Shown here one piece after another: positions 41,535-48,454 of a stretch of 64,000 bases of DNA. The notes beneath the pieces were generated by a model, which saw only the letters and a program-made list of their open reading frames with translations, ran no database searches and was not told the origin of the DNA. A program made the translations under genes and the position numbers. This DNA comes from Halobacillus hunanensis (GTDB lineage: Bacteria > Bacillota > Bacilli > Bacillales > Halobacillaceae). Location: NCBI RefSeq assembly GCF_900166655.1, contig NZ_FVZB01000005.1, forward strand, positions 124,001 through 188,000, in the 5' to 3' direction. How positions within the stretch are numbered: position 1 is the stretch's first letter; the number at the start of each line of letters is the position of its first letter.

Positions 41535-41651
41535 GGACTGATCATTTAAGTCCTTCCCGCCTAAGGGAAATACGGACATTTACGACCATTATTCTTAATG
41601 TATCATGGCCGTATTGTGTCCGTCTACTTTAAGAGAGGAGACGGTTTAATT

Positions 41652-42740
41652 ATGGGAGATTTAAAATTTGCTTATTGGGTTCCAAATGTAAGTGGAGGGC
41701 TAGTGGTTTCAAAGCTGCCCCAGCAAACGGATTGGAGTTTTGAGGCGAATAAAAGATATGCTCAAATTGCTGAGGATTCGAACTATGATTTAGCTTTATT
41801 ACAGACGAGGTTTTTTGCAAGCTATGGAGCTGAAAACCAGCTTGAGGCAATTACATTAGCTTCAGCGCTGGCAGCTGTTACAGACCGTTTACAGCTGATT
41901 TCTGCGGTTCATCCTGGTTTATGGCATCCGGCCGTGTATGCGAAAATGTTGTCGACGCTGGACCAAATCAGCGAGGGGAGAGCCGCAGTTAATGTAGTGA
42001 GCGGTTGGTTTAAACAAGAATTCACTGGATTCGGTGAACCTTGGCTAGAGCATGATGAACGGTACCGCCGTTCAGAAGAATTTATTCGTGTGCTGCGTGA
42101 ATTCTGGACTAAAGAAAAAGCTGCGTTTAGCGGTGACTTTTACAAAATAAATGATGCACCATCCAAACCAAAACCTGTTCAAGGAGGGGAGCTCCCTATT
42201 TTCCAAGGGGGGAATTCTTCAGCAGCTAAACAGATGGCAGCGCGTGTTTCAGATTATTACTTTATGAATGGAAATACACTAGAAGGATTCAAAAAGCAAA
42301 TTGATGAGGTGCGTGAACTGGCACAACAAGAAGGACGCGAGGTGAAATTCGCTGCACATGGTTTTGCAATTGTGAGGGACTCTGAAGAGGAAGCCTATCA
42401 ACAGTTAAACGATATCGTTCATGCTGCAGATGAGGACGCTGTTGAGGGGTTTAAGCAATCTGTAAAAGAAGCGGGGCAATCCACACAGGACAAGCAAGGG
42501 ATGTGGGCTAATTCCAGTTATAAAGATCTGGTGCAATATAATGACGGCTTTAAGACGGGATTGATTGGTACCGCTGAACAGGTAGCGAATCAAATCATCG
42601 AGTTGAAGAAAATCGGAGTCGATCTGATTCTTACCGCACACTTTCATTATGAACAAGATCTTGAGCGCTTCGGAAAAGAAGTGATTCCGCTTGTAAAAGA
42701 GAAGGAAGCAAAGCTTAAAGCTGAAGGAGTTTTGGCATGA
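41652..42740 (+). CDS. sfnG: Dimethylsulfone monooxygenase-like flavin-dependent enzyme (SfnG type)
   Basis: A 362-residue bacterial-luciferase-fold (LLM class) monooxygenase. It shows KFAYWVPNVSGGLVVSKLPQQTDWSFEANKRYAQIAE, LLQTRFFASYGAENQLEAITLASALAAVTDRLQLISAVHPGLWHPAVYAKMLSTLDQISEGRAAVNVVSGWFKQEFTGFG, the FMN and active-site region of the SsuD/SfnG group. SfnG uses FMNH2 to oxidise dimethylsulfone to methanesulfinate, releasing usable sulfur further on. ATG 41652 follows AGAGAGGAG. The SAM riboswitch upstream and the FMN reductase overlapping by ATGA both support a sulfur-scavenging role; alkanesulfonate is the alternative substrate. Confidence 0.85.
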   Translation: MGDLKFAYWVPNVSGGLVVSKLPQQTDWSFEANKRYAQIAEDSNYDLALLQTRFFASYGAENQLEAITLASALAAVTDRLQLISAVHPGLWHPAVYAKMLSTLDQISEGRAAVNVVSGWFKQEFTGFGEPWLEHDERYRRSEEFIRVLREFWTKEKAAFSGDFYKINDAPSKPKPVQGGELPIFQGGNSSAAKQMAARVSDYYFMNGNTLEGFKKQIDEVRELAQQEGREVKFAAHGFAIVRDSEEEAYQQLNDIVHAADEDAVEGFKQSVKEAGQSTQDKQGMWANSSYKDLVQYNDGFKTGLIGTAEQVANQIIELKKIGVDLILTAHFHYEQDLERFGKEVIPLVKEKEAKLKAEGVLA

Positions 42741-43327
42741 AGGTTTTAGGCTTGTCAGGAAGTGTGACGTTGAGCTCGAAGACGTGGATTTCCGTTAAAC
42801 AAGCTATTGAAGCGGCTAAAGAAGCTCTTCCTGGTGCTGAAACAGAGATTGTGCATCTCGGTGAATACGATACGGTGCTATGTGATGGACGTGATCCCTC
42901 ATTATACGAAGGAGATACAAAAGCACTCATAGACTTAATTGTTGAAGCTGATGCACTGATCATTGGAACACCTGTCTATCGAGCTTCATTGACAGGGGCT
43001 TTGAAGAACGTCTTTGACATAATACCAAACGACTCGTTAAGAGGAAAGGCAATTGGTTTTATTGCGTCTGGAGGCAGCTATCACCATTATTTAGTGATTG
43101 ACCACCAGTTGAATCCGCTTGCTAATTATTTCCGAGCCCATGTTATACCAGGCGGAGTGTATGTTCATAATGGTCATTTTAGTGAAGGGGAACTGGTGGA
43201 TGAAGATGTCAAAAGCCGTTTATATCAATTAGGTAAAGCAACTGTTCAATTAACGGGTAACCTTCAAAATAAAGACTTTGAGATTCAACAGCCTTCAATT
43301 CCAAGGCGAAGACTGCACCAAACTTAA
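42737..43327 (+). CDS. NADPH-dependent FMN reductase, monooxygenase partner
   Basis: A 196-residue flavodoxin-fold reductase. LGLSGSVTLSSKTWISVKQ forms the phosphate loop, DALIIGTPVYRASLTGALKNVFDIIP the flavin contact region and GKAIGFIASGGSYHHYLVIDHQLNPLANYFRA the dimer region, as in SsuE/MsuE-type enzymes. It should supply FMNH2 to the monooxygenase encoded 4 nt upstream in overlap. The operon ends at a strong terminator directly after the stop. Confidence 0.9.
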   Translation: MKVLGLSGSVTLSSKTWISVKQAIEAAKEALPGAETEIVHLGEYDTVLCDGRDPSLYEGDTKALIDLIVEADALIIGTPVYRASLTGALKNVFDIIPNDSLRGKAIGFIASGGSYHHYLVIDHQLNPLANYFRAHVIPGGVYVHNGHFSEGELVDEDVKSRLYQLGKATVQLTGNLQNKDFEIQQPSIPRRRLHQT

Positions 43328-46598: not shown

Positions 46599-47069
46599 TT
46601 ATTCAAATAATAAAACTTCCGGGTCCTTGTTATAAGTATGAACAAGCATAGCATGAAGTTGTCCGCGATGGTGGTACATATGCGCGATAATTTCAAGAAG
46701 CCACTCAAAACGTGTGTAGGCAACTCCCCACCAGGAAGTCGTTTGTGTGAATAAGTCTTTTTCTGAGTAGCTATCAAATTGCTCTTTTAGTAATGAGAAA
46801 TGTTCATATAAAGCATCTGATATTTCGCTCTTTGTCGTTAATGTAATAGAACTGTACAAGATAATCATGTCTTCCTCGGAAGATTCCTCCAGTACTTTAC
46901 CATCGGCGAAGGGGATCATAGCTAAATGTGCAAGGGTTTCACCAATTGAGAACTTACCCTGCGTAGGTCGAAACGCCAAATCTTCTTCTGATAACTGACC
47001 AATAATTTCAGAAAGGGAAGCAATGACAACTTCTAATTGATGAAAAGCATTATGGCAATATATATTCAT
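46599..47069 (-). CDS. DinB family protein (second in window)
   Basis: A 156-residue four-helix DinB-fold protein. It shows HNAFHQLEVVIASLSEIIGQLSEEDLAFRPTQGKFSIGETLAHLAMIPFADG and the C-terminal metal motif IIAHMYHHRGQLHAMLVH. These provide the three histidines of the family. It differs clearly from the DinB protein at 18764. Possible roles are thiol-dependent transfer or isomerisation; the substrate is unknown. The start ATG 47069 lies behind AAGGGG. Confidence 0.84.
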   Translation of the reverse strand: MNIYCHNAFHQLEVVIASLSEIIGQLSEEDLAFRPTQGKFSIGETLAHLAMIPFADGKVLEESSEEDMIILYSSITLTTKSEISDALYEHFSLLKEQFDSYSEKDLFTQTTSWWGVAYTRFEWLLEIIAHMYHHRGQLHAMLVHTYNKDPEVLLFE

Positions 47070-47154
47070 GGGAGAACCCCTTTTAATAGATGGTGGTAAA
47101 TTTATATTTCTATATGTGCCTGGTAAATTCCTGTCTTATTGTAAAAATATTCAT

Positions 47155-47187
47155 TAAAAAGAGGCTGCCGATTGCTCGGTCAGCCTC
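47155..47187 (-). terminator. Terminator of the receptor-pheromone operon
   Basis: On the minus strand GAGGCTGACCGA and TCGGCAGCCTC pair around GCAA, followed by TTTTTAAT, 13 nt after the precursor stop. Confidence 0.88.
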
Positions 47188-47199
47188 GCTCTAATGGTA

Positions 47200-47412
47200 T
47201 TAACCCATACCAGGATCACCAGGGTCTACATATGATGGTCCCTCCGTCGCGGTAAGTTCACTAGAACCCATTCCTGGGTCACCTGGATCTACTGCTAACT
47301 CGATCGATCCCATACCAGGATCACCGGGATCATATACGAAAGCACTGTAACCTGTACCGAAAGCACCCAATAAAACCAACGTTAAAAATGAAACAGAAAG
47401 TATCTTTTTCAT
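47200..47412 (-). CDS. Secreted peptide-pheromone precursor with three DPGDPGMG repeats
   Basis: A 70-residue protein encoded 4 nt after the AimR-like receptor. Residues 1-24 form a Sec signal peptide: Lys-Lys, a hydrophobic core (ILSVSFLTLVLLGAF), and a likely cleavage after YSA. The rest contains DPGDPGMG three times, at residues 28-35, 42-49 and 63-70, the last copy being the exact C-terminus, as in other RRNPP pheromone precursors. Spacers are SIELAV and SSELTATEGPSYV. All base differences among the three repeat-coding segments are synonymous. ATG 47412 is chosen for AGGAGG at 9 nt; the site overlaps the receptor stop, implying coupled translation. The mature form may be the octapeptide or its C-terminal GDPGMG. 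Confidence 0.83.
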   Translation of the reverse strand: MKKILSVSFLTLVLLGAFGTGYSAFVYDPGDPGMGSIELAVDPGDPGMGSSELTATEGPSYVDPGDPGMG

Positions 47413-47416
47413 AAAG

Positions 47417-48454
47417 TTATTCCTCCTGATTGGTGTGATGGATTCGCTCCAAATAGTAAAGAGGCAATTGGGCAAAAAAATGATCGCCGTATTCCTGAAT
47501 GAACCTATTATGGGCTCGCTTTAGCATTATTCGATCTTCCCTTGCCAGGCCTAAATAGCTTTCTTGGAACGGTGTTAATACAGATAGCTTTGAAAGAATG
47601 GACTCTGCCGTGTTTCGATCATTATTAGCAATAGCTAAATGAGCTGTCTCAACTGGGTCAGGCGTTGTAATGTTTAGTGTTCTTTTGTGAAAAGCTGAGA
47701 TAAAAGGGATCGTATAATTTTGAATCGATGTAATAACCTTATTTAGTTGATTTTCGCGGGCAATGCTAAGTCCTGCATAAGCATAGCCGATTGATAAATC
47801 GTAATCTTCGTAGAGATGGCATAGCGCCAAGTTGTGGTTCATTCCACTTTGTTTCCGTGGTGAAAGGTCTGTGTTAAGAACTTTATAAATATACTTTTTA
47901 GCTAAAAGAATGTTATTAGTCTTCCAATAATGCTGAAAAAGTAGTTCATCAAATCTCAATTTCATATAGTAGTAGAATAAAGGTTCATTAACGTGCAAGA
48001 GGGCGTCATAGCACTCATCTACATATTTATCTAATCCTGTGTACTGTTTACTATCATAGTAAGCATAGACTAAGGTGAATAAATGAAGACATCTCAAGGA
48101 TGGGTGACTGAAGGAAAGTGTCTGCAACCATTCTAAATCTTCATTAGTCAAGGGCTTTGAGTAACGAGTTAATAGAATTTGATATAACAAAGGGACTTCA
48201 GAATTATCCTGAGTAGTAGAGAGAGCTTCATCCAATTCCTGGAAAAAGTCGTTCATATAGAGAAATTCATAACTTGCCAGCTTGTCTTCTGTCTTAACAT
48301 GCGCGCTTGAAAGACAATAGTTCTTCGTAGCTTCAGCAGCTTCTTTACTCGAAGTGTGTCTAAGCTGATCATGATAGACTTGGTAAATTGTCGACACTTC
48401 GTTCATATGGGCTTGGCTTAATCTACTAGGTTCAATAACCTTATGACTTACCAT
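47417..48454 (-). CDS. AimR-like RRNPP peptide receptor, no evident N-terminal HTH
   Basis: A 345-residue helical-repeat protein. Its C-terminal FFAQLPLYYLERIH closely resembles the end of phage SPbeta AimR (FFIKLPLLELEKM), and ATKNYCLSSAHVKTEDKLASYEF resembles the AimR segment KDYCLNLDVKTKAARSALEY. TPR-like helices fill residues 60-330 (HLFTLVYAYYDSKQYTG, MNHNLALCHLYEDYDLSIGYAYAGLSIARENQLNKVITSI). AimR proteins are about 386 residues with an N-terminal DNA-binding HTH; here the first 45 residues lack one and no HTH frame is found upstream. ATG 48454 lies behind GAGGG. Binding of the downstream peptide is inferred from family and gene order. Confidence 0.82.
   Translation of the reverse strand: MVSHKVIEPSRLSQAHMNEVSTIYQVYHDQLRHTSSKEAAEATKNYCLSSAHVKTEDKLASYEFLYMNDFFQELDEALSTTQDNSEVPLLYQILLTRYSKPLTNEDLEWLQTLSFSHPSLRCLHLFTLVYAYYDSKQYTGLDKYVDECYDALLHVNEPLFYYYMKLRFDELLFQHYWKTNNILLAKKYIYKVLNTDLSPRKQSGMNHNLALCHLYEDYDLSIGYAYAGLSIARENQLNKVITSIQNYTIPFISAFHKRTLNITTPDPVETAHLAIANNDRNTAESILSKLSVLTPFQESYLGLAREDRIMLKRAHNRFIQEYGDHFFAQLPLYYLERIHHTNQEE

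Follow-up and report, generated by a model that had tools for sequence, protein, structure and literature searches.

A chromosomal AimR-clan receptor without a helix-turn-helix and its probable pheromone precursor in Halobacillus hunanensis

A 64,000-nucleotide stretch of the Halobacillus hunanensis genome (the window; G000:C2:124001-188000, where G000 is the host's own genome) carries two adjacent genes, a receptor of the AimR clan and a short precursor containing three copies of an octapeptide, which taken as a whole are probably a host-chromosomal RRNPPA pheromone-receptor pair with a Rap-like output that does not involve DNA binding and is possibly linked to sporulation. The component claims differ in strength. 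It is very likely that the two genes form a receptor-pheromone pair, and we are similarly confident that the receptor is without DNA binding based on a helix-turn-helix (HTH), this domain being absent from both the sequence and the structural model. The role we consider likeliest, advanced tentatively from the position of the receptor lineage in related genomes, is control of sporulation or of some other density-dependent step in dormancy. The system is not arbitrium, and has the appearance of signalling by bacteria, not by phages. Comparisons below refer mainly to the host's family (44 genomes), in which 49 receptors were read, excluding further family matches in three genomes (G034, G041 and G043).

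The two-gene unit and its receptor

The receptor gene (47417..48454, minus strand, stop included) encodes 345 amino acids and the precursor gene (47200..47412, minus strand, stop included) encodes 70. The precursor start codon lies 4 nt past the receptor stop, and its ribosome-binding site, read from the sequence as AGGAGG (47422..47427, minus strand), overlaps the receptor 3' end. Behind the precursor stands an intrinsic terminator (47152..47196, minus strand), whose hairpin of -27.1 kcal/mol (z -8.1; 0 of 200 shuffles equally stable) was also picked up in a terminator scan. This strong terminator defines receptor and precursor as a two-gene unit among metabolic genes and sets apart the downstream DinB-family gene (46599..47069, minus strand), which we use as a synteny marker. 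The flanks are metabolic-looking: an SfnG-type monooxygenase, MurE and MoeB/ThiF exceeded their NCBIfam cut-offs, and an FMN reductase, a formate/nitrite transporter, a catalase and GlcD were the best matches of other flanking genes, all below the NCBIfam cut-offs. At 41598-43327 of the window, the SfnG-type dimethylsulfone monooxygenase adjoins the FMN reductase, forming a probable sulfone-utilisation pair.

The earlier note had called the receptor AimR-like, and this was confirmed by family models: Pfam PF22871 (AimR) matched with an E-value of 1.1e-37 (130 bits; cut-off 26.7), NCBIfam NF038310 (AimR) with 116 bits (cut-off 70) and PHROG 1728 with an E-value of 3.2e-32. In an HMM comparison with AimR, Rap, NprR and PlcR, the Pfam search at E<=1 returned AimR only; the HMMs of PlcR and NprR themselves were not matched, nor was RapH_N, on which ground Rap was rejected as the receptor family. 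The match starts past the HTH part in the two longer profiles (at 53 of 365 and 58 of 380 positions). A single-sequence search of solved structures with the receptor gave no match, and a profile of 40 relatives was needed; it listed 12 PDB sequences, ten of them AimR (E 2e-19 to 4.5e-14) and two chance matches (E 0.2 and 3.6). SPbeta AimR was found by this profile at E 2e-19, its residue 53 lying opposite position 29 of the window receptor. An AF2 model built from five sequences (mean pLDDT 88.3, pTM 0.81) has a low-confidence N-terminal tail with a short helix at residues 11-16, a helix at residues 22-31, and TPR helices thereafter. When this model was submitted to Foldseek, all 16 chains at E<=0.001 were AimR (TM 0.69-0.79 by query length), and Rap ranked behind them. 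RRNPPA receptors are cytoplasmic TPR proteins of 5-9 repeats; this fold is matched by HMM, profile and model, and the RRNPPA trait of a small propeptide of putatively secreted type next to the receptor is likewise present.

The HTH of SPbeta AimR occupies residues 1-59 (PMC6458997). Where AimR has its HTH helices, the window receptor has a short tail (residues 1-20; 48395..48454, minus strand) of low pLDDT, and the upstream frame is closed, its 348 codons from stop to stop leaving no in-frame room for an HTH. Lacking this domain, the receptor is unable to engage DNA in the manner of arbitrium AimR, and its output would most likely be contact with a protein partner, switched by the peptide as it is in Rap. 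It is nevertheless conceivable, if rather improbable, that the receptor still controls transcription, with the short tail binding DNA or a separate HTH protein serving as partner. The closest solved relatives of the receptor are transcription factors, TPR residues of AimR also touch DNA (PMC6458997), and a few tail residues are conserved (P9 in 49 of 49 family receptors, I7 in 45 and E8 in 44). However, only about 20 residues, modelled at low confidence with one short helix, stand in place of the first HTH helices; conservation over the whole tail is lower than in the remainder of the receptor (mean entropy 1.88 bits for residues 1-20 vs 1.58 for residues 61-340); and an AimR-type partner was rejected because the host genome yielded one AimR-family match, the receptor itself.

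Precursor, repeats and peptide pocket

The precursor opens with MKK and a hydrophobic stretch (12-residue Kyte-Doolittle mean 2.7), assigned by hydrophobicity only as a putative Sec signal peptide of about residues 1-24 (47341..47412, minus strand; cleavage site predicted). Three exact copies of DPGDPGMG follow (47308..47331, 47266..47289 and 47203..47226, all minus strand), the last of which ends the protein. The earlier note had described this arrangement and had held that all differences among the copies are synonymous and that selection therefore acts on the repeat peptide, and each of these points stood. The copies differ pairwise by 5, 3 and 5 nt, every difference being synonymous and at a third position; at least seven changes separate them, and with synonymous sites making up about 24% of the unit, the chance that seven of seven would be synonymous is about 4e-5. 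The coding pattern DPGDxGxG occurs 53 times in 31 of the 44 family genomes vs 0 for a reversed control pattern, and thus is not a product of chance. Purifying selection is evident for both genes in comparison with locus L038 (receptor, dN 0.019 and dS 0.304; precursor, for which dN/dS was computable against L038 only, dN 0.052 and dS 0.732).

In the available text of PMC6458997, GMPRGA and SAIRGA are given as AimR peptides and 17 AimR residues are named as peptide contacts. Seven of the 17 are identical in SPbeta AimR and the window protein (L171, L214, F251, E269, D324, F326 and L330), and N202 and N206 of AimR are replaced. Across the 49 family receptors, E170, K178, F251, E269, D324 and F326 are invariant and L211 and F327 are found in 48; E170, K178 and L211 differ from AimR. 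Near-invariance among these receptors accordingly marks 8 of the 17 contact positions vs 46 of the 345 positions overall (P 5e-4). The residue at the position of AimR N206 is K in all 49, a lysine that, as judged from sequence, might contact the acidic D of DPGD.

A DPG- or DPI-type peptide ORF lies at most 1.8 kb downstream of 37 of the 49 family receptors, being the receptor's own in 33 cases and that of a tandem partner receptor in four; for the other 12, no DPG- or DPI-type precursor was found within 1.8 kb. A scan of both strands nearer the gene gave a single hit on the opposite strand in the family, and this did not resemble a precursor. Exact-pattern copies number one in 19 of the 33 own precursors, two in 10, three in three and four in one, so that 14 of the 33 have two to four copies; the triple repeat singled out earlier is real at this locus but is one state of a range from one to four in the family. 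That tandem copies raise the signal yield per precursor is plausible. Counted by receptor over the 37, the peptides end in DPGDPGMG (10), DPGDGGIG (7), DPGDPGIG (4), DPGDGGMG (4), DPIDGGYW (4), DPGDGGYW (2) or one of six other sequences found once each. At L064, L066, L067, L069, L060 and L065, the DPIDGGYW or DPGDGGYW ends come with a C-terminal extension. The six receptors with GGYW ends are close relatives and, by eye, have Y174 and D208 in common; L073 also has both residues, yet is without a precursor. DPG-type peptides also accompany some HTH-bearing AimR relatives (e.g. DPGGGMG and DPGPGVG). Among other irregular loci, L136, L137 and L135 represent a precursor retained in G039 without a neighbouring receptor, a precursor retained in G034 although its receptor is fragmented, and an unlinked Sec-type two-copy precursor in G014, and at L040 (G008) the precursor leader and repeats lie in different frames.

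The peptide is also encoded apart from the receptor. When the host genome was compared with the three nearest by receptor identity (G006, G007 and G008), an unlinked mini-ORF of 28-39 codons whose last eight residues are DPGDPGMG was found in the host genome (L132:7419-7505, i.e. G000:C2:370418-370504, minus strand), G007 and G008, the latter two at L133 near 6995 (minus strand) and L134 near 6916 (plus strand). These ORFs are without a strong hydrophobic leader (12-residue mean 1.0-1.3 vs 2.6-3.5 in seven precursors compared). The site is identical in the host and G007, beside a WrbA-like gene, and different in G008; at the corresponding position in G006 and G008, a search with L132 recovered no such ORF. 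A clear ribosome-binding site accompanies the mini-ORF in the host and G008, and a weak one in G007. The predicted mini-ORFs may be leaderless signals or intracellular agonists.

Distribution, chromosomal sites and origin

Receptor matches are present in 58 of 199 related genomes. In the family, 40 of 44 genomes have profile matches, 39 of the close type and one (G012) a longer, distant relative, and the four genomes without a match all fall under one genus code, g6; with the type present in 39 of 44 genomes, the view of the pair as a single oddity was not borne out. Of the 49 family receptors, 48 have 57-59 residues before a common anchor and the remaining one has 55, through start choice; the number is 48-70 in most other clade members (36 in one, again through start choice), and 74-97 in rows labelled as HTH-bearing, which include SPbeta and phi3T AimR. 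In a tree built on the TPR core alone, whose rows were mostly chosen for similarity to the window protein or a strong family score, a sampling that favours this group, the HTH-less clade of 44 rows is supported at 100/100; 43 of these rows are HTH-minus by a length cut, the exception, L154, being a matter of start-codon choice. A first tree comprised 80 of 97 rows (17 dropped, namely 16 near-copies and L123) and needed two changes of the HTH label; the second, which gave this support, had 70 rows after 18 were removed, those of the family were reduced to 16 and 13 new ones were included, and it needed four. Outside the clade, short N-termini are found in L101, which is borderline, in L153 and L155, which form a separate lineage, and perhaps in another represented by L123; with L153 and L155, and maybe L123, lying outside, the AimR clan lost its HTH more than once. 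The HTH-short AimR-like genes at L155:7836-8192 and L153 after 7164 have repeat precursors of other kinds (TPSTSPRIQS repeats; YDVDFRVR three times). L123 holds a 320-aa AimR-family ORF with 15 residues before the anchor, and the precursor downstream ends in GFGRGA, as a classical arbitrium peptide would.

The 45 family loci occupy several chromosomal sites with differing neighbouring genes: 13 lie beside DinB, as in the window, 18 after a YdjM-like gene, seven near catalase and five beside an aminotransferase-like gene, and two are unplaced; the site gene names other than DinB and catalase are our own reading. Nine of the 13 DinB-site receptors (L042, L047, L051-L053, L055, L056, L058 and L041) are without an adjoining precursor, and all nine genomes encode a DPGD-type precursor elsewhere.

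Outside the family, profile-matching receptors were read from 23 genomes, which belong to two families by code (f13 and f36). In 20 of these genomes the HTH-less AimR-like gene is flanked directly by spoIIQ on one side and spoIIID on the other (example loci L090, L092, L094, L095, L156 and L183); in the other three, spoIIQ is followed by the contig end (G100) or the receptor is at another place (G044 and G090). SpoIID, SpoIIQ and SpoIIID were over the NCBIfam cut-off in the one locus tested in this way (L156), and the other loci were assigned by tblastn. By filter, a DP-type precursor was detected at five of the 20 spoIIQ-spoIIID loci and none at the other 15. Two precursors lie behind the receptor at L183 and at L156: one has a DP-type repeat four times over (in L183, identical copies of DPVEPPIK) and the other a single DPDxGGMG end (DPDTGGMG in L183). 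In the host genome and in G036, spoIIQ and spoIIID are adjacent with no receptor between them, and the host receptor is on another contig, so the link to sporulation is by descent only. Within the family, the receptor is found in 39 of 41 genomes with SpoIIID, which is present in the host, and in 0 of 3 without it, a weak co-occurrence because the three belong to one genus with small genomes.

These distributions bear on three further explanations. A decoy or eavesdropper, merely soaking up the peptide of others and thereby tuning another system, is quite unlikely. The precursor-less DinB-site receptors, each in a genome with a DPGD-type precursor elsewhere, would fit such a role, but with the DPGD-type pattern in 31 of 44 family genomes these distant precursors are partly expected, and the window receptor has its own precursor 4 nt away, with purifying selection on both. 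The host genome, moreover, is without a second AimR-family protein to tune, though its weak RapH_N match means that a Rap/NprR-type protein may exist there; elsewhere in the family genomes, RapH_N was matched in 30 of 44, in 25 over the cut-off.

That the pair is a relic of phage arbitrium and continues to steer lysogeny is highly improbable, even though the NCBIfam equivalog model would call the receptor a lysis-lysogeny pheromone receptor. PHROGs searches of the 10 flanking genes gave no named phage function (three of the 10 matched families without an assigned function), the HTH is absent and the host synteny recurs; tblastn at E<=1 matched no phage record, and none of eight pattern matches in viral contigs was a precursor. 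A profile search of viral contigs gave one weak locus (L127), and tblastn of plasmids gave two weak matches, one of them annotated as AimR family. Genomic context, the absent HTH and the phage searches led us to reject this origin. The remark in the earlier note that no phage genes lie around the pair holds for named functions, and of its two proposals, a host-encoded system agrees with the location on the host chromosome in recurring host synteny, whereas the broad clade, the same synteny and the spoIIQ-spoIIID block in relatives lend no support to domestication from a phage. Scarcely credible, finally, is a structural or metal-binding secreted protein with a coincidental neighbour: the precursor had no significant family match in NCBIfam, Pfam and PHROGs searches and Gly/Pro/Asp-rich repeats occur in structural proteins, but 33 of 49 receptors have their own nearby peptide ORF, the opposite-strand hit is single and not precursor-like, and the control pattern had 0 matches in 44 genomes.

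Proposed function and relation to known systems

If the window genes are a host-chromosomal pheromone-receptor pair, the precursor would be exported and cleaved extracellularly into DPGDPGMG or a shorter peptide, and this product re-imported by an Opp permease; the host genome has seven SBP_bac_5 (OppA-type) matches, one of them partial. The AimR-type pocket of the TPR superhelix, whose conservation is described above, would presumably receive the peptide, which would switch a Rap-like protein-protein contact. The place of the receptor lineage in the spoIIQ-spoIIID block of two related families points to sporulation or dormancy control as the likeliest role, and sporulation is also a Rap target. 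A bolder and doubtful extension is that these proteins are a second, independently evolved Rap-like family, in which an old, HTH-less host branch of the AimR clan times sporulation through DP-type peptides, secreted and often multi-copy. Placed between spoIIQ and spoIIID in two Bacillales families, it would have been relocated and multiplied in Halobacillus, and unlinked leaderless mini-ORFs ending in DPGDPGMG would feed the receptor from inside the cell.

Our results suggest that the AimR fold, known from phage decisions, has a large HTH-less bacterial branch parallel to Rap. Such a branch is relevant to the question of whether transfer ran from hosts to phages or the reverse; the former is proposed in the text available of PMC12700828. 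The pattern DPGDxGxG offers a testable peptide code by which salt-loving Bacillales may signal, perhaps when forming spores, and the NCBIfam label 'lysis-lysogeny pheromone receptor' is misleading for these chromosomal proteins.

The literature, as far as its accessible portions extend, already contains DPG motifs and a chromosomal cluster of AimR-like systems: the DPG motif is stated to be widespread in AimR and subfamily 08 peptides, candidate subfamily 21, placed within the AimR sequence tree, comprises chromosomal systems from Alkalihalobacilli, and loss of the HTH is described for Rap and subfamily 17 (PMC12700828), Paenibacillaceae subfamily 08/AloR being HTH-9TPR (PMC12700828; PMC10075063). 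Another partly accessible source describes AimR located outside prophages (propeptide identified in 11%) and as many as six pheromone copies per propeptide, AimR systems being among those named (PMC9765709), and the accessible part of a further one presents Phr105 as a tandem-pheromone propeptide, the case analysed being a Rap system with other peptides (PMC11343458). A literature search found no paper on AimR in Halobacillus; the partial texts searched made no mention of an HTH-less AimR branch, the spoIIQ-spoIIID position or leaderless mini-ORFs ending in DPGDPGMG, though the clade may already be listed elsewhere.

Compared by description only, and with the source available in part, the window receptor resembles subfamily 21 in being chromosomal and belonging to an AimR-related branch, and the two may overlap. 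It differs from subfamily 08/AloR, as characterised in the same partial texts, in having no HTH. With Phr105-type propeptides, as far as they are described there, the precursor has in common several identical mature peptides, predicted in the present case, per precursor. The pair is like Rap-Phr of Bacillus in combining a probable pheromone receptor devoid of an HTH with a secreted-type precursor downstream, but is without the RapH_N three-helix bundle, and the Foldseek TM to Rap is about 0.4. Arbitrium hexapeptides generally end in GA. With arbitrium AimR-AimP of the SPbeta-group phages, the pair shares the TPR fold, the family HMMs, 7 of 17 contact residues and a precursor directly downstream; it differs in having no HTH, no phage and three peptide copies, and its peptide is DPGDPGMG in place of a GA-ending hexapeptide of the GMPRGA/SAIRGA type.
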